DNA from: Halalkalicoccus sp. CG83
Lineage (GTDB): Archaea > Halobacteriota > Halobacteria > Halobacteriales > Halalkalicoccaceae
Assembly: GCF_037081715.1 (NCBI RefSeq)
Contig: NZ_JAZDDH010000001.1
Coordinates: 682,001-746,000 of the forward strand
Direction of reading: 5' to 3'
DNA: 64,000 nt
The notes beneath the pieces are model-generated. The model was not told the origin of the DNA. It was given only the letters and a program-made list of their open reading frames with translations, and searched no databases. Made by a program: the position numbers and the translations under genes. Of the stretch, positions 7,940-44,447 are shown piece by piece. Every line of letters begins with the position of its first letter. Positions within the stretch are counted from its first letter, which is position 1.

Positions 7940-7944
7940 GACTA

Positions 7945-9313: not shown

Positions 9314-9441
9314 GATGAACCCAGTTGTTCCTCACAGATATAATTAGATGTTTTGTAAAAGTATTATACAGTGACACAGTACGGACTATCAATTCTCTGC
9401 TTACCACTGACTTTTTACTACTGCCTAGTGGTAGGTCAGAT

Positions 9442-19120: not shown

Positions 19121-20224
19121 CTACCTGCTCTTCGAGACCTGTTCGAGTGTTCTCGTCGTCTGCTCGACGGTAGCACTCCACGTGTACTCCTTCTCGACGA
19201 CCTGCCGCCCGTCGTCGTACTGTCCTGAAAGCGCCCGTATCAGTCCGCGAGCGAACCCCTCGATGTCGCCGACGGGGACCGTCGTCCCGGCTCCGTCGAT
19301 CACCGGCGCAACCTGCTTGAGGTCCGAACAGACTACGGGGACGTTACACGCCATCGCCTCCAACACTGTTCGCGGAAGCCCTTCCGCACGGCTGGGCAAC
19401 ACGAGTGCATCACCCGCGCGATACAGTGCCGGCATCTCGTCGTACGGTAACTGTCCAAGGAATCGAACTGATCCCTCTAACTGCTCGTTCGCTACCTGCT
19501 CCTTGAGTTTTCCACTCAGTGCCCCTTCACCACACAGGTAGAGCCTCGCTTCGGGATGCGCCTCCCGTACCCGCTTGATGGCCGCGACCGCGTCCTGTGG
19601 GCGCTTCCCGTCGACCAACCGACCGACGAACAACACGACTGGTCCATCGTGGTCGAGCAAGTCGCTTTCGGGCCCCTCGGGCGTGAAGCGCTCGGTGTCG
19701 ATCCCGTTCGGCACCACCTCGATGTCGCTCTGGACGCCGAACTCCCGCACTCGATTTCTGTCCTCCTCGGTGTAGCAGAACACCACGTCCGCCCGGTTGA
19801 ACGTCCACCGACCCACGCTCCGAAGGTACACGTCGAAGACCCACTCGGGTGCGTTCTGGGAGTAGAGGCCGTGGTTCGTGATCGCAAGCGGAACGTCGCT
19901 CAGTCGCCGTTTTAGTGCTGCGAGGTTCGTCGAGAAGTAGAGATGCGAGTGGGCGTGCATGACGTCGAACGCTGCCGCGTCCTTGAGGTGGCGTGCGACG
20001 CCGAGCGAGACGTCGTTTCCGAGCGCGGTCACGCTCGGCCGGTAGCGGACGACCCGATACCCGTCGCGTTCCTCGACGGCCGGTTTCTCGGGATCGCCAT
20101 CGACCGTCACTACCGTTACGTCGTGCCCCATCGCCGCCTGGTCACGACTCATTGCGTGGACGTGGTACGGTCCGCCACCCTTCACGTCGGGATAGACCTT
20201 CTGTGCGACGCGTAGAATGCGCAT
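19121..20224 (-). CDS. GT4-family glycosyltransferase
   Basis: 367 residues from the ATG at 20224 (MRILRVAQKVYPDVKGGG). The longer frame to 20281 is rejected because it overlaps the remnant upstream and has no family match. It is a GT-B fold: donor domain with GPVVLFVGRLVDGKRPQDAV and the GT4 motif YRAGDALVLPSRAEGLPRTV followed by LEAMACNVPVV. The His in NHGLYSQNAPEWV sits where an acceptor loop is expected. It converges with the sulfatase-fold gene. The transferred sugar cannot be read from sequence. Confidence 0.9.
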   Translation of the reverse strand: MRILRVAQKVYPDVKGGGPYHVHAMSRDQAAMGHDVTVVTVDGDPEKPAVEERDGYRVVRYRPSVTALGNDVSLGVARHLKDAAAFDVMHAHSHLYFSTNLAALKRRLSDVPLAITNHGLYSQNAPEWVFDVYLRSVGRWTFNRADVVFCYTEEDRNRVREFGVQSDIEVVPNGIDTERFTPEGPESDLLDHDGPVVLFVGRLVDGKRPQDAVAAIKRVREAHPEARLYLCGEGALSGKLKEQVANEQLEGSVRFLGQLPYDEMPALYRAGDALVLPSRAEGLPRTVLEAMACNVPVVCSDLKQVAPVIDGAGTTVPVGDIEGFARGLIRALSGQYDDGRQVVEKEYTWSATVEQTTRTLEQVSKSR

Positions 20225-20249: not shown

Positions 20250-20384
20250 TCAATCTGCTGATCGGTTGTTCGATTCCTCAATTTCAGGGTCTAGATCGGA
20301 GTCGAGGTCGGGATCGTCCCTACGCAGCAGGACGAGTACGTCGAGCATCGCGTTCCACATCTGCCAAATTACGATCTTCACGTC
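20250..20384 (-). pseudogene. C-terminal fragment of a sugar-1-phosphate transferase
   Basis: Translated leftward, these bases read DVKIVIWQMWNAMLDVLVL followed by an acidic tail and a stop at 20250, 44 residues in all. The first 15 residues match the extreme C-terminal segment of the two intact initiating transferases here (DVKIVIRQMWIALLD and DVKIVIHQIWMAM). The rest of the gene is missing. A third copy therefore existed in the same orientation before a deletion or exchange removed its body. Confidence 0.72.
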
Positions 20385-20387
20385 GAA

Positions 20388-20583
20388 TCAGGACGGGCGA
20401 AGAGCTGGGCAAGCTGGCAGCGATGTCCCGGGATGATGAGGGAGTGCTGGAGGTGTTTGAGGGGTGCTGTCGCACTATTACCAGCCCAGCGACGGTGCCG
20501 AGGAGACGTTTCGGAAGGCTGTGGAGGAGATGCGTGACGATCTAGAGGCGAACATCGACACGGTGTTCGAGCGTAACGGCTAG
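20388..20583 (+). pseudogene. unidentified frameshifted gene fragment
   Basis: Two rightward frames in series look like one protein: GEELGKLAAMSRDDEGVLEV then, after a shift near 20467, LSHYYQPSDGAEETFRKAVE continuing through MRDDLEANIDTVFERNG to a stop at 20581-20583. The acidic, helical composition fits a haloarchaeal gene, but I do not recognise the family. It lies exactly at the broken end of the transferase fragment, so it may be the other side of a recombination scar. Confidence 0.4.
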
Positions 20584-20629
20584 GAACTGCCCAGAGTAAG
20601 ACGATATAACCAACGATACAGTTTACCTA

Positions 20630-22162
20630 CTAACGTGGCACTGAACTGCCACTCATCCTTTGACTACGCTTTGTCAGGAGCACAACCGCGAATGCTGGGA
20701 GCAGCAGGACAACATCCTCGAGGAACGCAATCAGCGCGTTGTTTACGAGTCCGTATGGGATAAGGTGTGCCATGACGAGCGCGAAGGCGAACAGAGCGAG
20801 CAGCGAGTTGCGGTTCTGGTAGAGCGTCCAGTAAGTGAGTTTGAGTAGGACGCCGTAGATGATCGCCCCGATGACGATCCCCGGAATGCCGGCGTTGATG
20901 TAGAACGAGCCCATGTCACCCGGCGGCAGTCCACCCGATCCATCGGGGATCACCCACCGGCGGATCACCCCACCTTCGGTCGAGACTGGCTTCTCGGACC
21001 AGATGGCACGCGGTATGAAGTTCATGATTACCCGAAGATAGAATGTGCCGTACTGATATCCCATCTCCGCGGGAACCATTTCCATCAGTGCGATCATGTT
21101 GTCGAAGGTGTCGTTATGGACACCTGCAGAAACAATCCTGAGTGGGTCGACCGAGCGCAGTGCGGTGATCGGGGACCCATCAGAGCGGGCGGCCTGCGCG
21201 CCGATCAAGAACACCGAAGCGACGGCCCAGAACACGGGGAGCAGTAGGAAGTGAGCCGTCGGGTGAAGCCGCTGTGCGAACATGAACACGGGGTTATCGG
21301 AACGATCGTAGCCAGCGAATCCACGGAGCGCCGCGTAATAGCCTAGGATCGCGAGGACGATTCCGATCCGGACGACCGCCGCGCGACCGCCGAGCAACGA
21401 GATGAGTCCGAGGATGACGGGGAGGGTAAGGATCTGCGCAGCCGAGGGGAGTTCACGCCGGCTCATCGTCGCGAGGATCCAGAGGAAATAGCCGATATAT
21501 GTCATATTCGCGATAAGGATGAGCGGACCGAGCCCCTCGAAGAACTGGCTCCGGGAGACGGATGTCGTGTAGAGGAGTAGTGGGTTTCCGGCAGTGACAA
21601 CCCATAGCAGGTAGGCGTAGCCGACCAGACCGACCGCGATGTAGCCAAGCCCGATCCGTCGAAGTACCGTCTCTCGTCCGCGGATAGAGAGCCGTTGCGG
21701 GAGGGATATCGTGGGTGGGCGGTAGAGGTAGTACGCGCCAAGGAGGACCGCGAAGTATACGATGTAGAGTACGCCGACGGTCGTGAAACCGGCCTCAAAC
21801 GGCGTCGAGAGCCCTAATCCGTCAATCGTGTACTCGCGCGGCTCATAGTAGAGCCGTTGAATATACGCGATGGCGAGCATGAAGATGAACAGCGACTTGA
21901 ACACCATCGGCTCAAAGAGGTCAAAGCGACCCGACCGCGCGCTTAGGAGCCACGGGATCCCCGCGAGTGAGAGTAGCAGGCCGGCGATTAGCGGGAAGGG
22001 CGACCATTCGACCCATGCGATCACTGCTCCCGCGACCGTAACTGCGATGATGACTACTACGAGAGCGTACAGCAGGAGCCTCGCGCGGCGCGATTCGTGG
22101 GCGGGTGTTCGATCGGCCACTGGGGACCGGGATTCGGTTCTCAATCTTGGAGGTCCGCTCAT
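20630..22162 (-). CDS. Wzy-like oligosaccharide repeat-unit polymerase
   Basis: 510 residues with about 12 membrane helices after an Arg-rich cytoplasmic N-terminus. A large extracytoplasmic loop near residues 340-420 contains NDTFDNMIALMEMVPAEMGY and GTFYLRVIMNFIPRAIWSEK, the look of O-antigen or oligosaccharide polymerases (PF14296/PF01901-like). Its ATG overlaps the stop of the upstream flippase gene by 4 bp, so the two are translationally coupled. A Wzx and a Wzy in this order form a classic export and polymerisation pair. The repeat unit is unknown. Confidence 0.75.
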   Translation of the reverse strand: MSGPPRLRTESRSPVADRTPAHESRRARLLLYALVVVIIAVTVAGAVIAWVEWSPFPLIAGLLLSLAGIPWLLSARSGRFDLFEPMVFKSLFIFMLAIAYIQRLYYEPREYTIDGLGLSTPFEAGFTTVGVLYIVYFAVLLGAYYLYRPPTISLPQRLSIRGRETVLRRIGLGYIAVGLVGYAYLLWVVTAGNPLLLYTTSVSRSQFFEGLGPLILIANMTYIGYFLWILATMSRRELPSAAQILTLPVILGLISLLGGRAAVVRIGIVLAILGYYAALRGFAGYDRSDNPVFMFAQRLHPTAHFLLLPVFWAVASVFLIGAQAARSDGSPITALRSVDPLRIVSAGVHNDTFDNMIALMEMVPAEMGYQYGTFYLRVIMNFIPRAIWSEKPVSTEGGVIRRWVIPDGSGGLPPGDMGSFYINAGIPGIVIGAIIYGVLLKLTYWTLYQNRNSLLALFAFALVMAHLIPYGLVNNALIAFLEDVVLLLPAFAVVLLTKRSQRMSGSSVPR

Positions 22163-23595
22163 GATGCTGTCATTATCTTGACTAAACTCGACACTTCACG
22201 GCGGCGAAGACCGCCGGTCGCGAACAGGCAGACCGCGTATACCGGTGGGGCGAGTGCAAGGATGAGAATCCAGTGCAGCGGCACGAAGGCCATTGTGATT
22301 CCCATCAGTCCGGTAGCGACGAGAATCCGGCTAAGGCGGCCCCAATTGGGGACAACTCGGAGGGTATCTTGAAAGAGCCATCCGAGGAGAATCGCTCCGA
22401 CACCGAATGATGCGATCGTGGTGAGTGCTGCGCCAGCGACGCCAAGTACTGGGATCAGCAGGACGTTCAGAACGGCATTAAGCGCGACCATTGTGAGCTG
22501 GGCGAGCAGCGGCGTCCTCGAGTCACCGGTGGCGTAGAACAGCCGTTGGTAGACCTCGGCGCATCCCCTGAGGAACATTGCGAGTGCGATCAGGACGAGA
22601 AGGAGGTGTCCGGCGTCCGCGACCTCAGCTGTTGAGATCAGTCCGATCACGGCGTCGCCGATCAAGGCGAATCCTATTATCGCCGGTAGGGCAATCGTTG
22701 AGAAGTACCGGATACCAGTTTTCGTGTACTCGACAATCGTCCGGCGATCTCCCTCGTTCCAAAGGGTCGTGAACTCCGTATAGAACGACGCGTTGACGGG
22801 CGTGACGAATAATAAGATTAGGTAGGCAATGCTATAGGCGACGCTGTAGACACCGACCGCACTCGCTCCGAGGAAGAATCCGATGAGCACTCGATCGACC
22901 TTGTCAAGCGCGTGTTTTGAGAGATCGCCGCCCATCGTCGGTAGCGAGAACGCGAGCGATTCCCGGGCGATATCTACGGACGGAGCCGATATGCCGACCT
23001 CCCGAACGACGGGAAAAGTGATCGCTGCGGTGATCACTATTTTTGCGAGGACGACCGCAACGAACGCCTCGATGACCGTTCCATCAAGGGCGAGAATCGT
23101 GATCGCGACGGCGGCGACAAGCAGCCAGACGTCAACGGCCTCGATCCCGGAGTAGAGTCGAACCCGGCGCTGGGCATGGTAGTATGCCCGCGAAATCCTG
23201 AAGATGGCTTCAAACGGGATGTATGCGGCCGCCGCGACGAAGAGAAGCGTGTACTCGGTTGTGCTGAGTGTGTATACCGAGAGTAGTTCTGCACCCCCGG
23301 CGATGAATCCCGCGATGGTGAGTGCGGCCAGTCCCGAGAGGACGAACATCGTCGAGACGAGTTGGGAGGTCCGCGTACCGTCCGAGTCGAGCTGAACGAG
23401 TCCGGTATCGAGCCCGAGCGCGGCAACGTTCACGGCGATAATCGCAATGCCAAATGCTTGGACGAAGGCACCGTAGTCGGCGACCCCGAGGCCGAGTGTG
23501 AACAACGGGATGAATAATAGCCCGCGGAGCTTGAGGCTCGCCGTGAAGAGCGTCGAGATGATGATATCGCCCGAAATCTTCTTCGAGAGAGTCAT
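22159..23595 (-). CDS. Wzx-like polysaccharide flippase
   Basis: 478 residues, 14 predicted helices, MOP superfamily. The N-terminus has DIIISTLFTASLKLRGLLFI and LGVADYGAFVQAFGIAII; the second half has ALDKVDRVLIGFFLGASAVG and VYQRLFYATGDSRTPLLAQL, the family's two-lobed repeat. It is the middle gene of a leftward set: a 51-codon ribbon-helix-helix-like ORF ends 2 bp upstream, and the polymerase overlaps downstream by 4 bp. Its partner in lipid-linked glycan export is probably that polymerase. Confidence 0.9.
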   Translation of the reverse strand: MTLSKKISGDIIISTLFTASLKLRGLLFIPLFTLGLGVADYGAFVQAFGIAIIAVNVAALGLDTGLVQLDSDGTRTSQLVSTMFVLSGLAALTIAGFIAGGAELLSVYTLSTTEYTLLFVAAAAYIPFEAIFRISRAYYHAQRRVRLYSGIEAVDVWLLVAAVAITILALDGTVIEAFVAVVLAKIVITAAITFPVVREVGISAPSVDIARESLAFSLPTMGGDLSKHALDKVDRVLIGFFLGASAVGVYSVAYSIAYLILLFVTPVNASFYTEFTTLWNEGDRRTIVEYTKTGIRYFSTIALPAIIGFALIGDAVIGLISTAEVADAGHLLLVLIALAMFLRGCAEVYQRLFYATGDSRTPLLAQLTMVALNAVLNVLLIPVLGVAGAALTTIASFGVGAILLGWLFQDTLRVVPNWGRLSRILVATGLMGITMAFVPLHWILILALAPPVYAVCLFATGGLRRREVSSLVKIMTAS

Positions 23596-23597
23596 GA

Positions 23598-23753
23598 TTA
23601 TCCACTACTGCTATCCCGCTGCGGTTGCCGTTTCCGTTGCCGAAGTTCTTCGGGTTCGTCCAGAAGCTGGTTGGTCGTATCGTCGACTGATCCGCCGGGG
23701 TTCTTTCGGGCGTTAAGCCGTTGCAACGTCTCGTCTTCGAACCGAATCGCCAT
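23598..23753 (-). CDS. small ribbon-helix-helix-like protein
   Basis: 51 codons, MAIRFEDETLQRLNARKN, ending in a basic and Ser-rich tail (LRQRKRQPQRDSSSG); three further in-frame ATGs precede it, the first at 23765. The opening (strand IRF, then a short helix starting E-x-L-x-R-L) resembles haloarchaeal antitoxin-like or CopG/DUF7557-type small proteins. No toxin gene is adjacent. The stop is 2 bp from the flippase start, so it is probably co-transcribed with the flippase and polymerase and could autoregulate them. This is inference from position and a short motif. Confidence 0.5.
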   Translation of the reverse strand: MAIRFEDETLQRLNARKNPGGSVDDTTNQLLDEPEELRQRKRQPQRDSSSG

Positions 23754-23863
23754 CGTCATCATCATCTACCCATGGGATTATGTACGAGGATTTGCTATAG
23801 GCCTTACGTGATGAGTACAGGTTCATGGGTTTTAATCTTCCTCGATAATCAGAGACCCTGAGG

Positions 23864-25054
23864 ATGCAGCCGGGAAAACTATCAGTCGCGTTCATCCGAA
23901 CAACCTCAGGGGAGTTCACTGGGACGTCAAAGATGATTCTCCGGCTGGTCGATGGGATCGGTGACGACTTCGAGCCGATCATTATCTGCCAGAAGGACTG
24001 CCCACTGCTCGAGCAGGCCCGCGAGCGGAATCTCCAGACGGAGGTCATCCCTTACCGGGGAGTCCTCGATAACTACGGAGGGTCCCTGCTTTCACCGTCG
24101 CCACTTCAATTTCTTCGGATGATTTTTCGGATTGGACAGTATAACTTCGACGCCCATCGGGTGCTCTCCGAGGCGGATATCATCTGGTGTGATACCCTCC
24201 GGACGCTCCTCACGCTCGCTCCTACCGCGATTCTCAGCGATACGCCGGTCATCTGGAACGTCGGACTTGGCGAGAAATCAGAGGGTATCTACGCGTGGCT
24301 GAATGAGGTATGCTTCCGACTCGCTGATCATGTCTTTATCGAGTCGGAGCTGCAGGCCGAACGCCTCTATGGCAAGCAGTTCGATCGTCACCGGCAGAAA
24401 TTTACCATCTTCTATAAAGGGATCAAGATCGACCGATTCGCGACGTCAACCGAATCCGAACATCCCGATGGCGGGTCTGAACCCCTCACGATCGGAACGG
24501 CGGGAACGCTCACCGAACGCAAGGGTCATCATACGGCGCTTGAGGCACTCGCCCGATTTCAGGATGAGCATCCTGATCTCGACTTTACATACCGAATCGC
24601 CGGCGGGACGTCCCATCCGAAACACCACGAGTACGAGGCCGAACTCCGACGACAGATCTCCCGACTGGGGCTTGAGAACGTCGTCGAGTTCTGTGGGTGG
24701 GTGGACTCGGAGGATATGCCCGAGTTCTACCAGTCGTTGGACGTATTCATCCTCGCGTCGTCTGCTGAGGGGATCGCAGGGGTTGTCCGCGAAGCGATGG
24801 CGTCAGGTTGTGCCGTAATCGCGACTGATGTCGGCGGTAATCCCGAAGCGATTACCGATGGCGAGACCGGCCGAATCGTCCCACCTGACTCCCCCGATGC
24901 GATAGCCGACGCGCTCTCGGACCTCGTTTCGAATCCGCGGCACCGACGTGAGATCGCCGAGAACGGGTGCGAGTACACCACTGAGAATTTCTCGGTTGAG
25001 ACGTATGTCAACCGGTACGCGGATTTTCTGAGGCGCGTCGCGGCAAGACAATAG
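23864..25054 (+). CDS. GT4-family glycosyltransferase
   Basis: 396 residues, GT-B fold. The N-terminal domain begins LSVAFIRTTSGEFTGTSKMI with the expected Gly/Ser loop. The C-terminal domain shows IGTAGTLTERKGHHTALEAL and SLDVFILASSAEGIAGVVRE followed by AMASGCAVIATDVGGNPEAI, the GT4 E-x7-E signature with the nucleotide-sugar site. It is divergent from the RHH/flippase/polymerase set, so both promoters must lie between 23766 and 23863. It converges with the transferase at 25109. Confidence 0.9.
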   Translation: MQPGKLSVAFIRTTSGEFTGTSKMILRLVDGIGDDFEPIIICQKDCPLLEQARERNLQTEVIPYRGVLDNYGGSLLSPSPLQFLRMIFRIGQYNFDAHRVLSEADIIWCDTLRTLLTLAPTAILSDTPVIWNVGLGEKSEGIYAWLNEVCFRLADHVFIESELQAERLYGKQFDRHRQKFTIFYKGIKIDRFATSTESEHPDGGSEPLTIGTAGTLTERKGHHTALEALARFQDEHPDLDFTYRIAGGTSHPKHHEYEAELRRQISRLGLENVVEFCGWVDSEDMPEFYQSLDVFILASSAEGIAGVVREAMASGCAVIATDVGGNPEAITDGETGRIVPPDSPDAIADALSDLVSNPRHRREIAENGCEYTTENFSVETYVNRYADFLRRVAARQ

Positions 25055-25108
25055 AACGGCGGGTCCCAGCCCTTTCATCGATATCGCTGTGTGTTGACTC
25101 ATCCGTAG

Positions 25109-26560
25109 TCATCTCGCTTTGCTCTCATCGTGACGCTCTTGGCCGATAAACACCTTCACCGAATCCAATAGTGCGATCCACATCTGTCGAATCACGATCT
25201 TCACATCCAGCCAGAACGACTGCCGCCGAATGTACTCCAGGTCGTAGCGAAGCTTCTCCGTCGGATTCGTACTCGACGCATCGTTGATCTGTGCCAATCC
25301 CGTCAGGCCCGGTTTGACGAACCAGCGCTTTCGCCACTCGACAGCCTCCTCTTCGAGCAGCGCCTCTTCGTCAGTCCAGGCCGCTCGCGGGCCGACGACG
25401 CTCATGTCGCCGGTAAGAATCGCCCAAAGCTGGGGAAGCTCATCGAGGTGTGATTTCCGGAGCAGCCGACCAACGCGGGTGATCCGGTCATTCTCGCCGT
25501 CGTCGACGGGATCGGATGACTCGCTGCCTGGCAGCATCGTCCGAAACTTCAGCACGTCGAACGTTCTGCCGAGTCCGGCGGTTCGCGTCTGTCGGTAGAA
25601 GACCGGTCCGGGACTGTCGAGTTTGATCGCGAGCGCGATTAGCCCGAGTAGTGGTGCGAACGCCGTCAGTCCCGTCAGCGCGAATCCGACGTCGAAAATC
25701 CGCTTCAGTAGTCGGTCCTGCCAGTCCCACGGCTCGAGGTCGATCGTTACGAGCTCTCCTGCGGTTTCGTCCGAGAGCAGCACGCTGTCGGCGTGTTCGC
25801 GAAGCACTTTCGCCTCGACCCCATGAGCGTGACAGGTCTCGAGGACGCCGAAGAACTCTCCTCGGTCCGTGCTCCTGAACGCAAACACAACGGTGGCAAT
25901 ATCATGTTCGACGAGGATCTGCTCGAGCCGGGAGAGCCCGCCAAGGGACTGAAGATCCGAGGAGGGCATTTCGATCGTGCCGCCATCGGTCACTGTTGGT
26001 GTCGGTGATCGTGCTTGATCTGAGTCGATATTGATGCCGAGCGGCGGAGAGAGATAGCCCAGTACGGGGCTCTCGATCGCGTCCGCAGCTCGATTGATCT
26101 GGGCTGGATCGTCACCGACGATGATCGCCGGTTTCTCGCCCTTGATAGGCTGATTCCCAAGAATGACGAACCAGGCTGGAAGGACGATCAGCAATATGCC
26201 CATCGTCATCGCGAGCGTCGCACGCGGGAGCCGGTACGTCATATTAAAATAGCCGAGCGTCGCGAGCGCGAACATCGCCACCAGCACTCGTTTTTGCGCC
26301 AGAAAGATCGTATCCAAAATCCGTCGTGGACGTGGCTTGTACAGCGGGATCAGACAGGAGAACACGACGGCCGTGCTGAGTCCGACTGCCAGAAACAGTC
26401 TCTGTCCGTCTAGCACCACCACTGGAAGCCGTCTTACTACGGGCACGTAGCCTGTGAGGAGCATCTGCGGGATCGAGTGGTTCGCGATCAGGACGGCGAT
26501 TGCCGTCCACACCACGGTTCCCGCAGCGCTCATCAATCGATATCCTCCCCACTGTGCCAT
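25109..26560 (-). CDS. polyprenyl-phosphate sugar-1-phosphate transferase (initiating enzyme)
   Basis: About 483 residues. The N-terminal half has four or five membrane helices and a Rossmann-like CoA-binding-type domain (IIVGDDPAQINRAADAIE). The C-terminal half is the catalytic WbaP/PglC-type domain: KRIFDVGFALTGLTAFAPLL, LKFRTMLPGSES, KSHLDELPQLWAILTGDMS, VGPRAAWTDEEALL and KPGLTGLAQINDASS. The usual basic and acidic catalytic residues (KFRTM, DELPQ, GPRA) are visible. It should move hexose-1-phosphate from a UDP-sugar to dolichol phosphate. The ATG at 26560 is chosen; an upstream extension is not conserved with the copy at 34043. The likely promoter is the AT-rich stretch at 26612-26640. 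Confidence 0.92.
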   Translation of the reverse strand: MAQWGGYRLMSAAGTVVWTAIAVLIANHSIPQMLLTGYVPVVRRLPVVVLDGQRLFLAVGLSTAVVFSCLIPLYKPRPRRILDTIFLAQKRVLVAMFALATLGYFNMTYRLPRATLAMTMGILLIVLPAWFVILGNQPIKGEKPAIIVGDDPAQINRAADAIESPVLGYLSPPLGINIDSDQARSPTPTVTDGGTIEMPSSDLQSLGGLSRLEQILVEHDIATVVFAFRSTDRGEFFGVLETCHAHGVEAKVLREHADSVLLSDETAGELVTIDLEPWDWQDRLLKRIFDVGFALTGLTAFAPLLGLIALAIKLDSPGPVFYRQTRTAGLGRTFDVLKFRTMLPGSESSDPVDDGENDRITRVGRLLRKSHLDELPQLWAILTGDMSVVGPRAAWTDEEALLEEEAVEWRKRWFVKPGLTGLAQINDASSTNPTEKLRYDLEYIRRQSFWLDVKIVIRQMWIALLDSVKVFIGQERHDESKAR

Positions 26561-26611
26561 TACTAAAATTATCTCATGCCTATTCCATAAACGTTGTGAA
26601 ACAACCGAAAC

Positions 26612-26640
26612 CCTTTGATTATAAGGTATACTATGTAAAA
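26612..26640. promoter_or_regulatory. AT-rich promoter candidate
   Basis: TTGATTATAAGGTATACTAT and its continuation form overlapping TATA-like boxes in an otherwise GC-rich area. They lie about 55-80 bp upstream of the leftward transferase start at 26560. They also lie about 30-45 bp upstream of a rightward ATG at 26662 that opens a 45-codon frame ending in a hydrophobic stretch (AIVAVAGIGVYSV). That tiny frame could be leaderless and real, but support is weak. Confidence 0.4.
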
Positions 26641-26814
26641 TAAACCTCACTTCATACTGGTATGTCCTCTCTCGGATCGTTCATTGACAGCACGCTGGGG
26701 CTGTTACTGATGAGATGTTCTACTCCTAGACCCGCTAACCCGAAGGTGTGGAGACCAGCGATCGTCGCTGTTGCTGGAATCGGCGTCTACTCCGTCTGAT
26801 GATCTCTTGGCGAT

Positions 26815-28407
26815 CTAGCCGTCATCGCTACTGTCATCGGTACCGTCACCAGTGTCGGCATTCGACTCGGCTCCGGAGTCCGGTTTCGCGCCGGATTTCG
26901 TGTCCGTGGTTGAACCGTCTGCTGCAGGACCATTACCGTCGTCTGCTGTATGGGTGGAGTCCGATGAACTTGCGTCGGCTCCCTCGATACTGTCACTTCC
27001 GTCAGAGTCCGCGACGGGAAGTGGTGCGGTTAGACTCTCGATCACGTAGCCGACGGCGAGCGCACCGAGGATCGATCCGGGACCGAACTGATAGAGCGTA
27101 TAGGCCTCAAACAACTGGTGGACGGCAAAGCCGCTTGCGATCGCGAGCATGCCGAGCGTTCGAACGACGAGGGCCGGCCGGATCATCGAGTGAAGCAGCG
27201 GCCCGACGACGAGCACGAGGTAGGCGCCCCCGCCGATGAATCCCGCTCTGAGCGCGATCGAGAGATAGGAGTTGTGGATCGAGTAGGCGTCGGCGCTGGC
27301 GGGCAGGTAGGGTTCGATGAGCTGGCTCGTCTCGACGAGACCCTGCCCGAGCGGCGAGCCCTCGACGAGAAACGCGCGGAAGCCAGCCGACCAGAGGGTG
27401 AATCGGTTGGCCGGATCGATGGGGAGGACGCCGAGGGCAATCCCACCCAGAAACAGACCGACGGTGACGATAGTTCCCGCGATAAAGAGTGGAATCCACC
27501 TCGGATGCGTTCGTGAGCTCGCGACGTAGAGGCCGAGAGCGACTGCAGCGGCGAGCACGGCCGCACGGCTGCCCGAGAGGGCGAGTCCGACGACGGTGAG
27601 CGGGAAACAGAGGAGGGGAACGACCGCGAACGCCCGATGACGCGAGCGCTCGTAGGTCCGGTGGGTGGCGGCGACGCTGGCGATGACGCCTGGAAACATG
27701 AGCAAGCCGAACGTGTTGGGATTGGCGTAGATCGATCGACTGAGGGGTACGTTACCGACCGCGAGCGTGCCGGTCCACGTCCGCACGCTGAAGACGCCGA
27801 TGGAGTAGTCGCCGACGAACACCGTCGAAAGCGCAAGGAGGGCGACCCCGGCGGCGATCAGACTGATCGACCAGTACACCGCGTCCTGGGAGACGTACCG
27901 TGGGACGACGAAGAGGTTGAGTCCAAGAATGATGCCGGCAAAAACGGGAAACAGCCCGAGACCGGAGTTGGCGGCGTACTGGCTCGAGTGAAACAGGAAG
28001 ACACCGAAGAGGGCCGCGAACGAAAGCAGGTACGGAGCACCGTGCGTCCCGAAGCGAAGGAGATCGCCGCGAGCGAGGATCAACAGGAGCGTCAGAACCA
28101 GGACGGCCAGGACCTCGTGGAAGCGACTGGCGACTCCGCCGCGGACGAGGGCCCGTACGAGCCAGCCGATCGCGAACACGAGGACGAGCTGGAGGCCGAA
28201 CAGTGCCCAATGCCCGTCGGCGGCCGTCGAGTGGTAGTACACGAGCGCGATGGCGACGAGCGAGAGATAGGCCGCCAAGAGGTGGGACGTCCTGATGACG
28301 TCGGTATCCGGCGCTACGGCGACGAGGAGGGTGAATCCGGCCAGCAGGCCAACACCGATCGCGAGTCCTGCTCCGCCGGCGCTGTCTACGCGGTCATCAG
28401 ATTCCAT
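26815..28407 (-). CDS. O-antigen ligase/polymerase-like membrane protein with acidic tail
   Basis: 530 residues. Ten to twelve membrane helices occupy residues 1-455. The Wzy_C/WaaL-type loop lies near residues 330-390 and contains RFTLWSAGFRAFLVEGSPLG and SIHNSYLSIALRAG, where the H-N-S-Y-L motif is typical of O-antigen ligases. The last 70 residues are a disordered Ser/Asp/Gly/Thr-rich cytoplasmic or surface tail (DSDGSDSIEGADASSSD and similar), which is unusual for this family. The gene is divergent from the GT2 gene. It probably joins or transfers lipid-linked glycans on the outer face of the membrane. Confidence 0.82.
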   Translation of the reverse strand: MESDDRVDSAGGAGLAIGVGLLAGFTLLVAVAPDTDVIRTSHLLAAYLSLVAIALVYYHSTAADGHWALFGLQLVLVFAIGWLVRALVRGGVASRFHEVLAVLVLTLLLILARGDLLRFGTHGAPYLLSFAALFGVFLFHSSQYAANSGLGLFPVFAGIILGLNLFVVPRYVSQDAVYWSISLIAAGVALLALSTVFVGDYSIGVFSVRTWTGTLAVGNVPLSRSIYANPNTFGLLMFPGVIASVAATHRTYERSRHRAFAVVPLLCFPLTVVGLALSGSRAAVLAAAVALGLYVASSRTHPRWIPLFIAGTIVTVGLFLGGIALGVLPIDPANRFTLWSAGFRAFLVEGSPLGQGLVETSQLIEPYLPASADAYSIHNSYLSIALRAGFIGGGAYLVLVVGPLLHSMIRPALVVRTLGMLAIASGFAVHQLFEAYTLYQFGPGSILGALAVGYVIESLTAPLPVADSDGSDSIEGADASSSDSTHTADDGNGPAADGSTTDTKSGAKPDSGAESNADTGDGTDDSSDDG

Positions 28408-28645
28408 GGAGCCATCGAATACGTATGTGGAACTATCGAAATAACATCAACATTGTGATGCCGTTCGTCGAACGGCATGCGGGTTCGGTACTTCTGTTGG
28501 CGATCCATGGACCGCTGGTGTCTCGTATCTCGACACCGATGAGGACTACGCCGAACCCGTTTCCAGGCGGACTCGAACGTAGAGTAAAAGACGGTACGGC
28601 GTGAAGCCCAGGTCGAGTCCCCCTCCTACCCGCTCGATCACAGCT

Positions 28646-29590
28646 ATGGGTCCTACTCAAAGCAATCCGCTCGTCAGCGTCGTCGTGCCCACCTACGAGC
28701 GCCCCGAGGCAGCAAATCGGGCGATCGAGAGCGTTCTCGACCAGACGTATCGACCGATCGAGTTGATCGTCGTCGACGACCATTCGCCACGACCGGTGGC
28801 CGACGCGTTGGGACCGATCAATGCTGACGACGTGCAGGTCACTACGATCCGCCACGAGGAGAACCGCGGCGGGAACGCCGCCCGGAACACCGGCCTCGAC
28901 GCGGCGACCGGGGAGTTCGTCGCGTTCCTCGACGACGACGATGAGTGGCTGCCGAAGAAGCTCGAACGCCAGGTCACAGCCCTCGAACGGGAGGACGCCG
29001 GATTCGCGTACACCGGTGTTCGGAACGTCGGCCCCGATGGCGAGACGATCTCGATCACGTCCTCGTCGAACGGCGGCCGGGTGACCAAACGGCTCCTGTT
29101 CGGCAACTTCATCGGTACCTTCTCGGCCGTGATGGCCCGGCGAACCGTGATCGAGCGAGCGGGGAGGCTCGACGAGCGGTTACCGAGCTGGCAGGACTGG
29201 GAGTACTACGTTCGGCTGTCGCAATACGGTCGGTGCGTCGCGATCCCCGAGCCGCTCGTCGTTCGCCACAACGCTCCGACGGGCCAGATCAGCCGGTCAA
29301 TTGAGCCGAAGCGTGAGGTCTCCTACCCACTTCTTCTTGAGCGGTTCCGGCCAATCGCCAGCGAGTATGACGTCGAGCGAAAGATGGAAGGGTACCTCTC
29401 GTATGCGCTCGGACGGGCGGCCCTCTCGAACGGTGACTACGCCGGCGCACGACGTGACTTCATCCGGTCGATCGTTCGGTACCCCTTCGACCCCTCGTTC
29501 TACCTCTATCTCGCGGCGGCGGCCGGCGGACGATATGCGTACCCGTCGTTACGGACGGTCAAGCGATATGTGACTCGACTCACCGCTTGA
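28646..29590 (+). CDS. GT2-family glycosyltransferase
   Basis: 314 residues from the ATG at 28646 (MGPTQSNPLVSVVVPTYERP). GT-A fold with VDDHSPRPV, HEENRGGNAARNTGLDAATG, the D-x-D region VAFLDDDDEWLPKKLE, and the acceptor-side W in LPSWQDWEYYVRLSQYG. This matches soluble GT2 enzymes that add single sugars to lipid-linked precursors on the cytoplasmic side. The C-terminal 70 residues form a helical tail without membrane helices. The flippase gene at 29640 follows after 49 bp, likely in one transcript. Confidence 0.9.
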   Translation: MGPTQSNPLVSVVVPTYERPEAANRAIESVLDQTYRPIELIVVDDHSPRPVADALGPINADDVQVTTIRHEENRGGNAARNTGLDAATGEFVAFLDDDDEWLPKKLERQVTALEREDAGFAYTGVRNVGPDGETISITSSSNGGRVTKRLLFGNFIGTFSAVMARRTVIERAGRLDERLPSWQDWEYYVRLSQYGRCVAIPEPLVVRHNAPTGQISRSIEPKREVSYPLLLERFRPIASEYDVERKMEGYLSYALGRAALSNGDYAGARRDFIRSIVRYPFDPSFYLYLAAAAGGRYAYPSLRTVKRYVTRLTA

Positions 29591-29639
29591 TTCGGATACC
29601 GCGTGTCTTCTTGTAGGACTACCCGGTAGACGGCGGTAG

Positions 29640-31136
29640 ATGGACCGGGACATCATCCGTGGGTTTCTCTCCATTCTTGGCGGCCGCGTCGGTCGAATGG
29701 TGCTCTCGATCCTGGTGACGCCCGTTCTCGTCCGCGTCCTCGGCAGCCGAGGCTACGGCGACTACGCGCTCGCGATGTCCACGATGACGCTGCTCATGAT
29801 CGTCGTCAACGCCGGCATCTTCGACGGTGTGCGCAAGTACATCGCTGAGGCACGATCGTTCCCCGACTGGGAGGACCTGGTCTTCGGGTTCTATGCCCGG
29901 ATCGCGGTGCTGCTCGTGAGCGTCGTCGTGCTCGCGCTTCTCGGACTCACCGCCACCGGACTGATCGGCCGTGTTTTCGGCCAGCGTTTCGGGACGTACT
30001 TCTACGTCGTCGCCGCACTGCTCGTCGGCAACCAGTTCTACGAGCTGGTCCGCGGCGCCCTAATGGGGTTCGGCCAGGAGCACTACTCCGAGCCCCTCGT
30101 CGTTCTCAACAAACTGCTGTTCTGTATCGTCGGCGTCGGGCTCGCCTACGTCGGCTACGGCGTCGAGGGCGTGCTCGTCGGCCACCTCGTCGCGACAGTC
30201 GTCGTGACGGTCGTCGGGCTCGTCTTCCTTCGACGCCACCTCTCTCTCTCGTTCGCGACCCGAGCGGTACCATCGGAGTTCCCGCGCCGGGAGTTGTTCT
30301 CGTTCAACGCGTTCAGCGTCGTCCTGATCTTCCTGACCATGTCGCTCTACCACGTTGATATCCTCCTCCTCCAGCCGCTCTCGGGGAGCGAACAGACCGG
30401 TCAGTATAAGGCCGCCCTCGTCATCGCCGAGTTTCTCTGGTTCGTCCCGATGGCGATCCAACTCGTGCTCCTCCAGGCGACCTCGGAGCTGTGGGCGAAC
30501 GAGGACGTCGACCGAATCACCCATATTGCCGCTCGGGCGACGCGCTATACGCTCCTGTTGACCGTCCTGCTGGCGTTAGGGCTGGCTGCGCTCGCGGATC
30601 CCTTTGTGCCACTGTACTTCGGCTCCGAGTTTGCCGCCGCGATCGATCCGTTGCTTCTCCTGTTGCCTGGCGTGATCGGCTTCGCGCTTGCTCGGCCGAT
30701 CTACGCCATCGGCCAGGGGAAGGGCGACCTGCGGATCCTTATCCTAGCGACGGGCGTTGCCGCGCTCCTCAACGTGGTGTTGAACCTGCTGCTCATCCCC
30801 CGATTCGGGATGTACGGCGCGGCGGTCGCGACGAGCATCGGCTACGGTTCGATGGCCGGGCTGCACGTCTGGAGCGCCCGCCGGATCGGCTTCGACCCGA
30901 TCGCGGACCTCCGGTTCGGCCGGATCGCCGTGACCGCGGTCGGCGCGGCACCCGTGATCCTCGGCGGCGCGTATCTCATCCCGTGGCCGCTTCTCGCGCT
31001 GGCCGTCGTGCCGCCGATCGGCTTTGCGGTCTACGCTGGCTTGGCCGTCCGAACCGGCGCGGTCGACGCCCTCGAGGTGCGGCGACTCCTCAACCGGCTG
31101 CCGGCACCGCTGGCTCGCCTGGATGGTTTCCTTTGA
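29640..31136 (+). CDS. Wzx-like polysaccharide flippase
   Basis: 498 residues, about 14 helices, MOP superfamily. Diagnostic stretches are VTPVLVRVLGSRGYGDYALA, VDILLLQPLSGSEQTGQYKA and the C-terminal FGMYGAAVATSIGYGSMAGL. It belongs to the second intact module, between a GT2 gene and an O-antigen-ligase-like gene on the same strand. It is the third flippase of the window and differs in sequence from the other two, which argues for a distinct substrate and origin instead of recent duplication. Confidence 0.9.
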   Translation: MDRDIIRGFLSILGGRVGRMVLSILVTPVLVRVLGSRGYGDYALAMSTMTLLMIVVNAGIFDGVRKYIAEARSFPDWEDLVFGFYARIAVLLVSVVVLALLGLTATGLIGRVFGQRFGTYFYVVAALLVGNQFYELVRGALMGFGQEHYSEPLVVLNKLLFCIVGVGLAYVGYGVEGVLVGHLVATVVVTVVGLVFLRRHLSLSFATRAVPSEFPRRELFSFNAFSVVLIFLTMSLYHVDILLLQPLSGSEQTGQYKAALVIAEFLWFVPMAIQLVLLQATSELWANEDVDRITHIAARATRYTLLLTVLLALGLAALADPFVPLYFGSEFAAAIDPLLLLLPGVIGFALARPIYAIGQGKGDLRILILATGVAALLNVVLNLLLIPRFGMYGAAVATSIGYGSMAGLHVWSARRIGFDPIADLRFGRIAVTAVGAAPVILGGAYLIPWPLLALAVVPPIGFAVYAGLAVRTGAVDALEVRRLLNRLPAPLARLDGFL

Positions 31137-31286
31137 TTCCGGCCCCGGTGGCGTGTCGTGTCCTGTTGCCCTTCCTGGGTCCATATCGGATTCGACGGCA
31201 CTGAGGCGGAGCCGCAACGGGCACCGTTTCCTATCGTTTAATAGAATCGAGTGAGGATCGGCGAGCATCGCACCCCTGCTCCTCAC

Positions 31287-32558
31287 ATGGAATCACTAGA
31301 ACGGGCGCTGAGGCCGTCGAAGTTCGAGTACGCTACGAGATCTGCAGCCATGGCTCTCAGTCTCCTGCTGATCTTCACGCTCCCGTGGCGCGGCGCCTTC
31401 CAGCTTGGCGCGGTCGGCACCATCGGACGGGCGGTCGGAGCCGTCGTCGCTGCGGTCTGGGGCGTGAACGTGCTCGTCCGGGGGGAAGTGCGGATCCTCT
31501 CCCGGCTGCATCTCCTCCTCGGAGCGCTCGCCTGCTGGAGCGCGCTCAGCTACGTCTGGTCGATCGCGCCTGGCCTCACTCTGGGGACGACGCTTCGCTA
31601 CGTGCTGATTCTCGGCATTCTCGTCGTCATCTGGGACTTATACCGACGCGACGTTGCGATCGAATACGCGTTCTTCGCGTACGTCATCGGCGCGTACGTG
31701 CTCGTCGGTGCCGTTTTCATCGACCTCCTGGTCGATTCGATCGGCCAGACGAGCCGGTATACGGCCTTCGATCTCAACCCGAACATCATCGCCCGAATGC
31801 TCGCTCTCGGCACCCCGCTCGCGGGTTATCTCCTGATCCGATCCACCGATTCGTTGCTCTCGAGTCGGGCCGTCCGTGCGATTAACCTCCTCTACTTCGT
31901 GCTGTCGGGCGTCGCGATCATGCTGACGGTCGCCCGGCAGGGAATGATCGCCTATGGGATCGCGCTCGCGTTCCTCGCGTTCCTGTGTTATCAGGAGTAC
32001 CTCAGGAACGCCGACGTCTCCCTGCCGTTCGATCGAACGGTGCTGGCCGCCGGTGGCGTAGTGCTGCTCGCCGTGCTCGTCGGCGCAGCCACACTGATCC
32101 TCGTCGCGACGAACCTCCTCACGCGATTGCTGCTGACGCCGATGGAGGTCGCATCAGGCGACTTCGGCGGGCGCGCTCCGATCTGGGAAGCCGGGATGAC
32201 GGTCTTCCGACAACGACCGATGCTCGGCCACGGGAGCGGGACGTTCATGCCGGCGGTCGAACCCTTCTTCGCGGAGGGAGAGGTCCCCATCGCGGCGCAC
32301 AACGCGTTCATCCAGCTCGGGGTTGAGCTCGGCCTCGTTGGCATCGCCATCTACATCGCCATTCTCGTCGTCGCCGCCGTCGCCATCTATCGGCAACACA
32401 CTCGTTACCGTGCGCTCTGGGTGAGTCTGTTCGCGATTCTGTTCGTCTTTATCTTGATCGAGGGGATCGTCGCCAATGTCGTCAAGTATCTCGTCTTCAC
32501 CTTCGCTCTGGCCACCGCACAGTCCGAACGAAACCGGAAGCTCCAGCTGGGCGAGTAG
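31287..32558 (+). CDS. O-antigen ligase-like membrane protein
   Basis: 423 residues from the ATG at 31287; the frame is open to a GTG at 31251. About 11 helices. The large loop before the last helices contains GRAPIWEAGMTVFRQRPMLG followed by HGSGTF, and IAAHNAFIQLGVELGLVGIA with the H-N-x-F-I motif of Wzy_C ligases. Two ligase-like proteins in one module (the other at 26815) could divide polymerisation and final transfer to protein or lipid. It converges with the GT4 gene at 32698. Confidence 0.85.
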   Translation: MESLERALRPSKFEYATRSAAMALSLLLIFTLPWRGAFQLGAVGTIGRAVGAVVAAVWGVNVLVRGEVRILSRLHLLLGALACWSALSYVWSIAPGLTLGTTLRYVLILGILVVIWDLYRRDVAIEYAFFAYVIGAYVLVGAVFIDLLVDSIGQTSRYTAFDLNPNIIARMLALGTPLAGYLLIRSTDSLLSSRAVRAINLLYFVLSGVAIMLTVARQGMIAYGIALAFLAFLCYQEYLRNADVSLPFDRTVLAAGGVVLLAVLVGAATLILVATNLLTRLLLTPMEVASGDFGGRAPIWEAGMTVFRQRPMLGHGSGTFMPAVEPFFAEGEVPIAAHNAFIQLGVELGLVGIAIYIAILVVAAVAIYRQHTRYRALWVSLFAILFVFILIEGIVANVVKYLVFTFALATAQSERNRKLQLGE

Positions 32559-32697
32559 CCTCCGTAGCGCGCCGCCGACCGCGACCTGGACTCGAATCGT
32601 GAACGCAGGCGGTCGGTCGTGTCCGTGTTTAACGATCGGAGTAAAAACCCAGTCACGTGCCGCTCTCGCTCACACCGTGTCGTCTCAGCGGCTCGGT

Positions 32698-33855
32698 TCA
32701 GCCCAGCAGGCTCCGATAGATCTCCTTCCACTGGTCGGCGATCTTCTCCAGGTCGAATCGGTTCTCGATCACCCGTCTGCCCCGTCGGCCCATTCGGTTC
32801 CGCTCCGCCGGCTTCGTCGCTCGTAGTCGGTCCATCGCCGCGGCCAGCGCCGCCGGATCGCGTGCCTCACAGAGATGACCTGTTTCCCCGTCAACAACGA
32901 TCTCCTCGGGACCGCCGCATCGCGTGGCGACGACCGGTAATTCGCACGCCATTGCCTCCGCAACGACGAGACCGAACCCCTCCCAGTGTGACGAGAGGAC
33001 GAACCCGTCCGCGGCACTCATGTAACTCGGCACGTCGTTCGTGGTTCCCAACAGCGTGATCCGATCCGCCACCCCCTCCTGTTGGATCTCCCGCTCGACC
33101 TCCGGCTTCAGCTCTCCGTCACCGAGGATCCATAGCTCATTGTCCGGTGCCGAAAGCCGGCCGAACGCACGGATCATCGTCGGATAGTCCTTGGCGTTCG
33201 TGAACCGCCCGGCCGCCAGCCAGACGAACTTCTCGTCCGCACCGTGTCGGTCTCGTATCGCCGCCCGTCGCTCTGAATCCCTGTGGAACTCCTGGGTGTC
33301 GATCCCGTTGTAGACGACCATCGAGCTCCGCTCGCTGACGGCGTTGATGTCGATGTACCGCTGCCGGCTCGATTCGCTCACGAACGTCGTCAGATCGCTC
33401 AGGACGTCCGTCGCCCGATACATGCGTTCTCGTATCGTCACTTCCGGGAGGTCTCCGCCGCTCGTTTTTGGGAGGCCTCTGCCGTTCGTCTCATACGTGC
33501 TATGTACCGTCGATACCGACTCGGCGTTCGGCGAGAGCAGGGAAAGCAGCCGAGATAGTACGTTCGAGTGATACATATGCCCGTGAATGATGTCCGGTCG
33601 TTTCTCGAAGAGAAGGAAGAGCAGGCGAGGGAATTTATACAATAATTGATAATTTTTCTCGATGTTCAAGGACACGACGTCGACCTGACTATCCATGAGC
33701 TGCTCCCCCATCGCCCCTACTGGACGCAGACAGACGATCCGGATATCAACTCCTTTTTCCGCCAATCTCTCAGAGGAGACGCTGATCTGTTTCTCAGCGC
33801 CGCCGATACCCATTGAGGAGGTGAGACAGAGAACATCGATAGTATCCTCACTCAT
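32698..33855 (-). CDS. GT4-family glycosyltransferase
   Basis: 385 residues, GT-B fold. N-terminal domain: DVLCLTSSMGIGGAEKQISV, the G-G-A-E loop common in GT4 enzymes. C-terminal domain: FVWLAAGRFTNAKDYPTMIR and MSAADGFVLSSHWEGFGLVV followed by AEAMACELPVVATRCGGPEE. All binding motifs are intact. It lies between the ligase-like gene (convergent) and the second initiating transferase (same strand, 187 bp upstream). The gap before it is AT-rich and includes an oligo-T run near 33860. Confidence 0.92.
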   Translation of the reverse strand: MSEDTIDVLCLTSSMGIGGAEKQISVSSERLAEKGVDIRIVCLRPVGAMGEQLMDSQVDVVSLNIEKNYQLLYKFPRLLFLLFEKRPDIIHGHMYHSNVLSRLLSLLSPNAESVSTVHSTYETNGRGLPKTSGGDLPEVTIRERMYRATDVLSDLTTFVSESSRQRYIDINAVSERSSMVVYNGIDTQEFHRDSERRAAIRDRHGADEKFVWLAAGRFTNAKDYPTMIRAFGRLSAPDNELWILGDGELKPEVEREIQQEGVADRITLLGTTNDVPSYMSAADGFVLSSHWEGFGLVVAEAMACELPVVATRCGGPEEIVVDGETGHLCEARDPAALAAAMDRLRATKPAERNRMGRRGRRVIENRFDLEKIADQWKEIYRSLLG

Positions 33856-34042
33856 AGCTTCTTTTTTGGAGGATACCCATCCTCAACATAATTCTTCCGT
33901 TTTTTAGGAATTAGCATGATCGTTGTCTCGAACCGATTCGCTCCATCGGTTGCCGGCCGTCGAGGCCGACTCAGACGGCCCCTGCGATGCATATCGCGTC
34001 CGAATTCGTTGCCGGTCCTTACCCTATCGGACACCCACTGTG

Positions 34043-35473
34043 TTATCGACGTTTTGGATCCGTATTCCGAACCAGTTCGACAACGTCAGTCATCGCCATC
34101 CAGATCTGGTGGATCACGATCTTCACGTCCAGCCAGAACGACTGCCGTCTGATGTACTCGAGATCGTAGCGGAGCTTAGTCTCCGGGTCGGTGCTCGAAG
34201 CGTCGTGGATCTGTGCGAGGCCGGTCAATCCCGGCTTGACAAACCACCGCTTTCGCCACTCGACAGCTCGTTCCTCGAGCAAAGACTCCTCGTCTATCCA
34301 GACCGCTCGGGGGCCGACGACGCTCATATCACCGACGAGAATCGACCAGAGCTGGGGGAGCTCGTCGAGATGGGATTTCCGAAGCAGTCGGCCGACGCGG
34401 GTGATTCGGTCGTTGTCCTCGTCGTCGACCGGGCCGACTGATTCGCTCCCGGCGTACATCGTCCGGAACTTCAACACCTCGAAGGTGCTTCCCAGGTCCG
34501 CCGTGCGTTTCTGTCCATAGAAGACCGGTCCGGGACTGTCGAGTTTGATCGCGAGCGCGATCAGCCCGAGTAGTGGTGCGAACAACACCACCCCGGTAAG
34601 CGCGAACGTAACGTCGAACCCGCGCTTGAGCAGCCGATCCTGCCAGTCCCACGGTTCGAGATCGACCGTCACCAGTTCTCCGGCGGTTTCCTCCGAAAGC
34701 AGCACGCTGTCTGCGTGTTCGCGAAGCACTTCCGCCTCGACGCCGTGCTCGTGACAGGTCTCGAGGACGCCGAAGAACTCACCACGATCCGTCGTTCTGA
34801 ACGTGAGGACGACGGTAGTGACGTCGTAGTCGGTAAGAACTTGCTCGAGACGGGACAGTCCTCCGAGCGGTTTGAGAGGTGGCAACAAGACCTCCGCGCC
34901 GCCGTCCAGCACCATCTCCGGACTCGGTGTCGCCGACTCCGAGTCGACGTTGATCGGCGGCGAGAGATAGCCGAGGATCGGCATTTTAAGCGCGTTCGCT
35001 GCACGGCTGATCTGGGCCGGATCGTCCCCGACGATGATTGCCTGTGGATTCCGTGTTCTGTACTCGCTTTTGACCATCACCAACCAGATTGGGAGGACCA
35101 CGAGGAGAATCGCCGTCGTGATCGCGAGCGTCGCGCGCGGGAGTCGATACGTCCAGTTGAAATAGCCCAATGTCGCGAGCGCGAACATCGCAGTCAACAC
35201 CCGCTTTTCGGTCAAGAAGATCAGATCGAGAATCCGCCGCGTCCGTAGCTTGTAGAGCGGCGTTAAACACAGAAAGACGGTGAGACTGCTGAGTCCGATC
35301 GCGAGGATGAGGTCGGAGGCCGTCAGTACCGTTACCGGTAGTCGCCGAGCGAGCGGGAGGTGTCTCGTAACGATTGCCTGCGTGAGGGGATGATTCGCGA
35401 TGAGTACGGCGATAGTCGTACAAACTACCACCCCTCCAGCACTCAACACTCGAAGTACTATTCCTCTGACCAT
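34043..35473 (-). CDS. polyprenyl-phosphate sugar-1-phosphate transferase (initiating enzyme, copy 2)
   Basis: 476 residues from the ATG at 35473; a TTG at 35500 is an alternative. Its layout and sequence are very close to the copy at 25109: membrane N-terminus, VGDDPAQISRAANALK middle domain, then LKFRTMYAGSES, KSHLDELPQLWSILVGDMS, VGPRAVWIDEESLL and KPGLTGLAQIHDASS. All catalytic motifs are present. The C-terminal half is nearly identical by eye to the other copy while the N-terminal half differs more, which fits either functional constraint or gene conversion. It faces away from the epimerase gene, with promoters in the 178-bp gap. Confidence 0.92.
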   Translation of the reverse strand: MVRGIVLRVLSAGGVVVCTTIAVLIANHPLTQAIVTRHLPLARRLPVTVLTASDLILAIGLSSLTVFLCLTPLYKLRTRRILDLIFLTEKRVLTAMFALATLGYFNWTYRLPRATLAITTAILLVVLPIWLVMVKSEYRTRNPQAIIVGDDPAQISRAANALKMPILGYLSPPINVDSESATPSPEMVLDGGAEVLLPPLKPLGGLSRLEQVLTDYDVTTVVLTFRTTDRGEFFGVLETCHEHGVEAEVLREHADSVLLSEETAGELVTVDLEPWDWQDRLLKRGFDVTFALTGVVLFAPLLGLIALAIKLDSPGPVFYGQKRTADLGSTFEVLKFRTMYAGSESVGPVDDEDNDRITRVGRLLRKSHLDELPQLWSILVGDMSVVGPRAVWIDEESLLEERAVEWRKRWFVKPGLTGLAQIHDASSTDPETKLRYDLEYIRRQSFWLDVKIVIHQIWMAMTDVVELVRNTDPKRR

Positions 35474-35651
35474 CAGTAATATATTTCTCCGATCTCGCAA
35501 TAAATATCCCGGGCTTTATCTCGGTGGTTGCTACCCTCACGCATGGACCTCACCTAGTGGTTCTCTCTTGTAGTCGCCAGCTTCAACTTCATCGTAGCGC
35601 CGACAACCGTAGTTCGTCACCTTTTCATATCGTGTGAGAGACCATCCAATA

Positions 35652-44427: not shown

Positions 44428-44447
44428 CCCCGCCCTAAAGGGCGGGG
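44428..44447 (-). repeat. right-end stem-loop, probable omega-RNA 3' region
   Basis: CCCCGCCCTAAAGGGCGGGG is a perfect 8-bp stem with a 4-nt loop. The tnpB stop codon (44435-44437) lies inside it, so translation end and structured RNA overlap. In studied TnpB systems the guide (omega) RNA comes from the end of tnpB and the right end, with the guide part reading into flanking DNA; here that guide would come from the end of the MoxR gene. The RNA itself is inferred. Confidence 0.6.

Follow-up and report, generated by a model that had tools for sequence, protein, structure and literature searches.

A putative patchwork surface-glycan island at a split initiating sugar transferase locus in the haloarchaeon Halalkalicoccus sp. 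CG83

Surface glycans help determine the viruses and mates of an archaeon, and the exchange of glycan gene sets is poorly dated. Three described systems come closest to the locus considered here. The replacement flexible genomic islands of aquatic prokaryotes, including Haloquadratum, resemble it in that differing gene sets with surface-glycan functions occupy the same site between flanking core genes, and homologous exchange has been proposed for them (PMC4033161, PMC4535781). The variable glycosylation clusters of Haloferax are likewise haloarchaeal glycan gene sets that differ among close strains (PMC5867893), and the cps1-4 loci of Lactobacillus plantarum provide a precedent for multiple polysaccharide clusters in one genome, some equipped with a priming transferase and others lacking one (PMC3539956). 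Our subject is a glycan locus of Halalkalicoccus sp. CG83 that contains two intact genes and a C-terminal stub for Bac_transf sugar transferases (BT). It lies in a stretch of 64,000 nucleotides (the window; main contig, positions 682001-746000; genome size 3.64 Mb), which we compared with other haloarchaea. We favor, at a probability of roughly 60%, the interpretation that it is a patchwork island of surface-glycan genes that expands through import at a conserved hub, the ancestral gene order epimerase (EPI)-BT-family 4 glycosyltransferase (GT4).

An earlier note on the window, prepared from the sequence alone, had recorded three leftward BT pieces, and their coordinates, orientation and accompanying gene content proved correct. 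With their immediate neighbors they make up the hub, listed here from right to left; G001 to G006 denote the other members of a same-genus comparison of seven genomes, the window's own counted in, with one genome per species.

35634-36638, + strand: EPI, NAD-dependent sugar-nucleotide epimerase/dehydratase, right-hand hub anchor, divergent from BT (Pfam GDP_Man_Dehyd/Epimerase)
34043-35473, - strand: BT_B (B), intact initiating polyprenyl-phosphate sugar-1-phosphate transferase in the native EPI-BT context (476 aa; PF02397 E = 2.5e-57)
25109-26560, - strand: BT_A (A), second intact initiating sugar transferase (483 aa; PF02397 E = 4.9e-57; 71% identical to BT_B)
20396-20580, + strand: decayed piece of an unrelated gene immediately next to the stub, forming the non-homologous flank of the joint (one frameshift; two short open frames)
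20250-20384, - strand: BT stub, 3' terminus (44 codons) of the native BT gene, in the native GT4adj context (DNA synteny with G006 and G004)
19121-20224, - strand: GT4adj, family 4/1 glycosyltransferase, left-hand hub anchor (59-76% identical in G003-G006)

The relatives supply the state from which this arrangement departs. EPI, BT and GT4adj are adjacent in G004, G005 and G006, where the gaps between the BT and GT4adj matches measure 35, 4 and 44 nt, respectively, and the same trio is present in G003 with 1.2 kb of other genes between BT and GT4adj. Throughout G003-G006, EPI is 79-88% identical to that of the window and adjoins BT, and GT4adj follows directly or nearly downstream of BT. In the window, EPI flanks B and GT4adj flanks the stub; therefore, the ancestral trio has been split. 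The interval from 20.4 to 34.0 kb is absent between BT and GT4adj in G003-G006. Because B keeps the epimerase side of the relatives' trio and the stub keeps its GT4 side, the 13.7 kb between them is, on this comparison of gene orders, best identified as an insert. The EPI-BT_B junction can be aligned with those of the relatives, and no breakpoint was seen in that alignment.

The other edge of the insert falls within a BT gene. The stub translates to FDVKIVIWQMWNAMLDVLVLLRRDDPDLDSDLDPEIEESNNRSAD, which matches the BT C-terminus, and it ranked third, behind A and B (E = 0.01 over 23 residues), when the BT profile was searched against the window's six-frame stretches, 1,695 in total. The fragment reported earlier is thus real, and its DNA is continuous with the BT 3' end of the relatives: stub, spacer and GT4adj align as a single block with G006 (72% over 499 nt, E = 1e-66) and G004 (71% over 492 nt), beginning at the BT codons for FWFDLKIV. 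Because these elements align as one block, the stub can be assigned by synteny as the 3' terminal part that was cut off the native BT gene and has kept its original position. Its opposite flank is the remnant at 20396-20580, for which we found no BT homology, no significant Pfam match (best E = 0.06) and no same-genus homolog beyond a weak match in G001 (60% over 22 residues, E = 0.08). Crossing-over between direct repeats excises the interval between them and yields one complete hybrid gene. The stub is joined to unrelated DNA, and therefore its joint speaks for end-joining or one-sided homology, not for a repeat crossover; the sequence at this scar points to an illegitimate joint. Deletion-generating end-joining has been documented in Haloferax (PMC7521656).

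Site-specific integration of a mobile element in the BT 3' end, which restores the gene on one side, would also produce the geometry seen here, with a 3' fragment at one end of the insert and an intact gene at the other. Yet no integrase, transposase or plasmid gene occurs among the window proteins scanned between 20.6 and 34.0 kb, and no identical attachment (att) repeat was found at the insert ends, the stub and B being only 71% identical over 73 nt rather than sharing an identical att core. We consider such an integration extremely improbable.

The remaining same-genus genomes show further rearrangement of the hub. G002 lacks BT and GT4adj; EPI, truncated at residue 145, directly meets the family 4/1 glycosyltransferase GT4b, truncated at residue 278, so that EPI is fused head-on to the last third of the GT4b ortholog; the joint (about 20970-20980 of the contig; L038, G002:C7:20001-40000) shares at most a few bases. 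This looks like a natural deletion of the hub through an end-joining-like joint, and an assembly error might produce the same sequence. G001 lacks BT, GT4adj and a close EPI but retains the DUF4350/MoxR genes that anchor the locus on the right. This right anchor is also found in G002, G005 and G006, with contents that differ between species. The module proteins of the window are at most 58% identical to their same-genus homologs, the exception being GT4b in G002 (67%).

A and B are the only full BT copies in the genome, and both combine a hydrophobic N-terminal half with a C-terminal Bac_transf catalytic domain (Pfam PF02397). A, the sole copy scanned with NCBIfam models, fell below their cut-offs (TIGR03025, 271.8 versus 295.55 bits; WcaJ, 238.8 versus 410.75 bits), and because of these scores it is placed by its sequence within the sugar-transferase superfamily and outside the named EPS_sugtrans/WcaJ subfamilies, with a predicted initiating activity. 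The two genes had earlier been described as very similar, a description that their divergence does not bear out. They are 71% identical at both the DNA and the protein level, with a longest exact run of 44 nt. Their overall DNA identity of 0.707 compares with 0.66-0.70 to other species, and their third-position identity of 0.506 with 0.47-0.56 for either copy against G003, G004 or G006. The NG86 estimates of nonsynonymous (dN) and synonymous (dS) divergence are 0.223 and 1.169 (dN/dS ~0.19); both genes are evidently under purifying selection. Between species the BT dS values span 0.69-1.41, most of which the A-B value equals or exceeds, and the identity profile along the two genes tracks the conservation of the family. 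The synonymous divergence and even identity rule out A and B as recent duplicates, and the age of the pair is, by these sequence distances, that of the genus radiation or nearly so. No A-B conversion was detected at silent sites, where the longest shared run of polymorphic codons was 8 (permutation p = 0.10). Over all polymorphic sites there was one run of 14 (p = 0.003, uncorrected), which is weak evidence of conversion because two between-species pairs gave similar values (0.004 and 0.008) and ten comparisons were made.

These results bear directly on the proposal of the earlier note that homologous recombination between the same-orientation BT genes deletes or swaps the modules between them, the stub being the scar of one such event. 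The layout invites this idea: A and B both point leftward at a spacing of 8.9 kb, complete Wzx/Wzy-type sets lie between the copies, the 44-nt identical run and the marginal run of shared polymorphic sites are present, and the locus contents vary by species. Nevertheless, the copies, at 71% identity, a dS of ~1.2 with saturated synonymous sites and a silent-site conversion p of 0.10, show no homogenization, and no A/B hybrid joint was found in the seven same-genus genomes. Moreover, a repeat crossover cannot leave a stub abutting unrelated sequence, and so the fragment stands as a scar of rearrangement inside a BT gene but not of recombination between repeats. Recombination drops log-linearly with divergence (PMC4500145), and A and B differ by 29%; in haloarchaea a divergence of ~14% costs less than 100-fold (PMC4500145), and nothing in this locus demonstrates haloarchaeal recombination at 29%. 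What survives of the exchangeable modules is that the intervals are not fixed across relatives, being absent between BT and GT4 in G003-G006; A and B diverge evenly all the same, and switching driven by the repeats now appears improbable.

Paired BT loci in another haloarchaeal genus, g48, argue in the same direction. There, two same-orientation copies lie ~12.7 kb (G144) and ~7 kb (G382) apart, with both copies also present in G349 on separate contigs, and the interval includes DUF192, an AglB-like protein and the epimerase. Identity is 71-75% within a genome and 85-99% between orthologs of the three species. Because the copies remain distinct across these species, same-orientation BT pairs can, by analogy, persist without conversion or loss. 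Our order-level survey took in 392 genomes, and among the BT pairs listed with coordinates, same-orientation copies at most 20 kb apart occur only in g48 and in the window. G180 has two identically scoring BT copies far apart (C1:4699-6081, near the contig start, and C1:3535528-3536910), which reflect either a recent duplication or an assembly overlap.

The stability of the multicopy g48 loci through speciation also counts in favor of a scenario in which the hub or its BT duplicated in tandem long ago, the copies diverging and glycan genes accruing between them before a third copy was truncated by deletion. A tree of 30 proteins accords with this, uniting A and B as sisters with moderate support (78-98 by method). 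However, the tree is star-like, with an inner branch of 0.07 against tips of 0.37 and 0.40 for the pair; approximately unbiased (AU) tests do not reject the grouping of A or B with other species (p = 0.11-0.31); the synonymous divergence of the pair matches or surpasses most between-species values; and no flanking gene was duplicated alongside BT. We regard an old tandem duplication as unlikely, though it merits more weight than site-specific integration or switching between the repeats.

Under the patchwork-island interpretation, some 13.7 kb of glycan genes, probably foreign and with a second BT among them, would have come to separate the start of the BT locus, now BT_B, from the final 44 codons of the native gene. 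Other haloarchaea may have supplied the material. Homology would have joined it on the epimerase/BT side, and end-joining within the BT 3' end on the side of the stub, perhaps in successive steps, given that the genes at 26.8-32.6 kb differ in composition. Probably the two BTs either initiate two different glycans or work in alternative assembly sets. Four points weigh against this interpretation: the sister grouping of A and B fits an old duplication within the lineage; no donor of the insert was found, its foreignness resting on absence and composition; the stub-side joint may instead reflect the deletion of a once-complete third copy; and the order of events admits more than one sequence. 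Regarding vehicles, five haloarchaeal plasmids carry a distant BT, all below 60% identity, and a viral carrier was set aside, there being no full-length BT among phage records.

The junction that was opened in the window is variable elsewhere too. In 19 haloarchaeal loci where BT and then GT4adj lie on one strand, the gap between them is at most 94 nt in 9 and 1.0-4.4 kb in the other 10, with contents largely unrelated across loci except among close relatives. The gap holds a formyltransferase and its neighbor in Halovenus, a UDP-sugar dehydrogenase and an epimerase in Halorussus marinus, and in Halosimplex aquaticum (L045:11512-14481) a 989-aa STT3/AglB-like oligosaccharyltransferase with a C-terminal laminin-G-like domain. 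In g48 it is filled by a VapBC-like PIN/antitoxin pair (L100:2919-3739; L099:3559-4193), in G043 by a TumE-like pair and in Halobacteriaceae archaeon SHR40 by three leftward open reading frames without a Pfam match (L049:11908-14570). The 13.7-kb insert of the window is the largest seen and the only one with another BT. These observations raise the possibility, to which we give somewhat less than an even chance, that across Halobacteriales genes are captured at a conserved hotspot, the junction of BT with the glycosyltransferase that follows it, which is independently filled with glycan-modifying enzymes, oligosaccharyltransferases or toxin-antitoxin pairs and here with a whole second glycan module bearing its own BT. 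This is a lead only, because the loci were picked non-randomly from the best matches and no control gene pair was used.

The genes of the insert, and the sulfatase gene beyond GT4adj, are as follows.

32698-33855, - strand: GT4b, family 4/1 glycosyltransferase just downstream of BT_B (Pfam Glycos_transf_1)
31251-32558, + strand: WZY2, O-antigen ligase/polymerase-like membrane protein (Pfam Wzy_C E = 1.8e-20)
29640-31136, + strand: FLIP2, Wzx-type flippase (Pfam Polysacc_synt)
28601-29590, + strand: GT2, family 2 glycosyltransferase (Pfam Glycos_transf_2 E = 2.7e-34)
26815-28407, - strand: WZY1, O-antigen ligase-like membrane protein directly upstream of BT_A (Pfam Wzy_C E = 4.7e-9)
23864-25054, + strand: GT4x, family 4/1 glycosyltransferase (Pfam Glycos_transf_1)
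22159-23595, - strand: FLIP1, Wzx/MATE-type flippase (Pfam Polysacc_synt_3 E = 6.6e-18)
20630-22162, - strand: WZYx, probable oligosaccharide repeat-unit polymerase (below-cutoff TIGR04370 match, E = 9e-4; no Pfam match)
17622-19061, + strand: sulfatase-family protein adjoining GT4adj, also in relatives (Pfam Sulfatase E = 8.7e-31)

As had been claimed, each interval thus has its own flippase, polymerase/ligase and glycosyltransferases by Pfam, save that WZYx is recognized by its below-cutoff match only: WZYx, FLIP1 (Polysacc_synt/MatE) and GT4x lie between the stub and A, and the two Wzy_C proteins (WZY1 and WZY2), GT2, FLIP2 and GT4b lie between A and B. With an initiating transferase, both intervals amount to Wzx/Wzy-type sets. 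The module genes appear by their genomic neighborhoods to be regular partners of BT, because in 11 of the 18 genomes with both positions given among the top FLIP2 matches listed, a FLIP2-type flippase lies no more than 25 kb from a BT. The pairing of WZY1 with BT recurs in G005 (C6:65127-67878), a GT4x homolog lies beyond GT4adj in G004 and Halorussus, and WZYx homologs adjoin GT4x/FLIP1 in G004 and L044. The GC content at third codon positions (GC3) is 0.77-0.86 in the genes at 26815-32558 and 0.68-0.74 in both BT genes, GT4b and the genes at 20.6-25.1 kb, as compared with 0.84-0.88 in core genes at 42-50 kb. Because of this difference within the insert, GC3 suggests at least two sources, composition alone being weak evidence.

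Other parts of the neighborhood also carry sugar-related genes. At 5296-12000 of the window, four sugar-transfer-associated ATP-grasp genes are packed into 7 kb of low-GC DNA; those at 8204-9313 and 9325-10539 are divergent and overlap an imperfect 188-nt inverted repeat. Shortly past the right end of the window, a second glycan island (G000:C1:753120-770000; L134, L135) holds paralogs of DUF1616, a Wzy-like protein, sulfatases and GT4adj (44%, with a stop within the match). An IS605-type TnpB/OrfB is encoded at 44435-45634, with a 72% identical copy at C1:779816-781063.

In its general kind, then, the locus is a mosaic surface-glycan island like those already described. The replacement flexible islands are known between strains of one species, and their recombination arms are flanking core DNA; our comparison crosses species boundaries, one of the joints appears to be illegitimate, and the island encloses the anchor gene itself, as two copies and a stub. 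The Haloferax clusters serve aglB/aglJ N-glycosylation, whereas the hub here is a Bac_transf initiating transferase with Wzx/Wzy-type genes. The cps1-4 loci of L. plantarum are bacterial, and insertion into the transferase gene is not described there (PMC3539956). Nearest in layout are the BT pairs of g48 (G144, G382 and, on separate contigs, G349), with two same-orientation copies 7-13 kb apart at 71-75% identity; they differ in their DUF192/AglB-like/epimerase interval, in that no stub was seen and in that both copies are orthologous in three species. Because the hub is unsplit in relatives, one edge of the insert can be placed within a few bases, and the locus suggests that end-joining, besides homologous exchange, reshapes glycan loci. 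If the BT-GT4 junction is indeed a general capture site, it would offer a fixed address at which to survey haloarchaeal glycan diversity. Two features are new relative to the known systems: an insertion with a defined boundary within the gene of an initiating transferase, and the repeated filling of the junction between BT and GT4adj.

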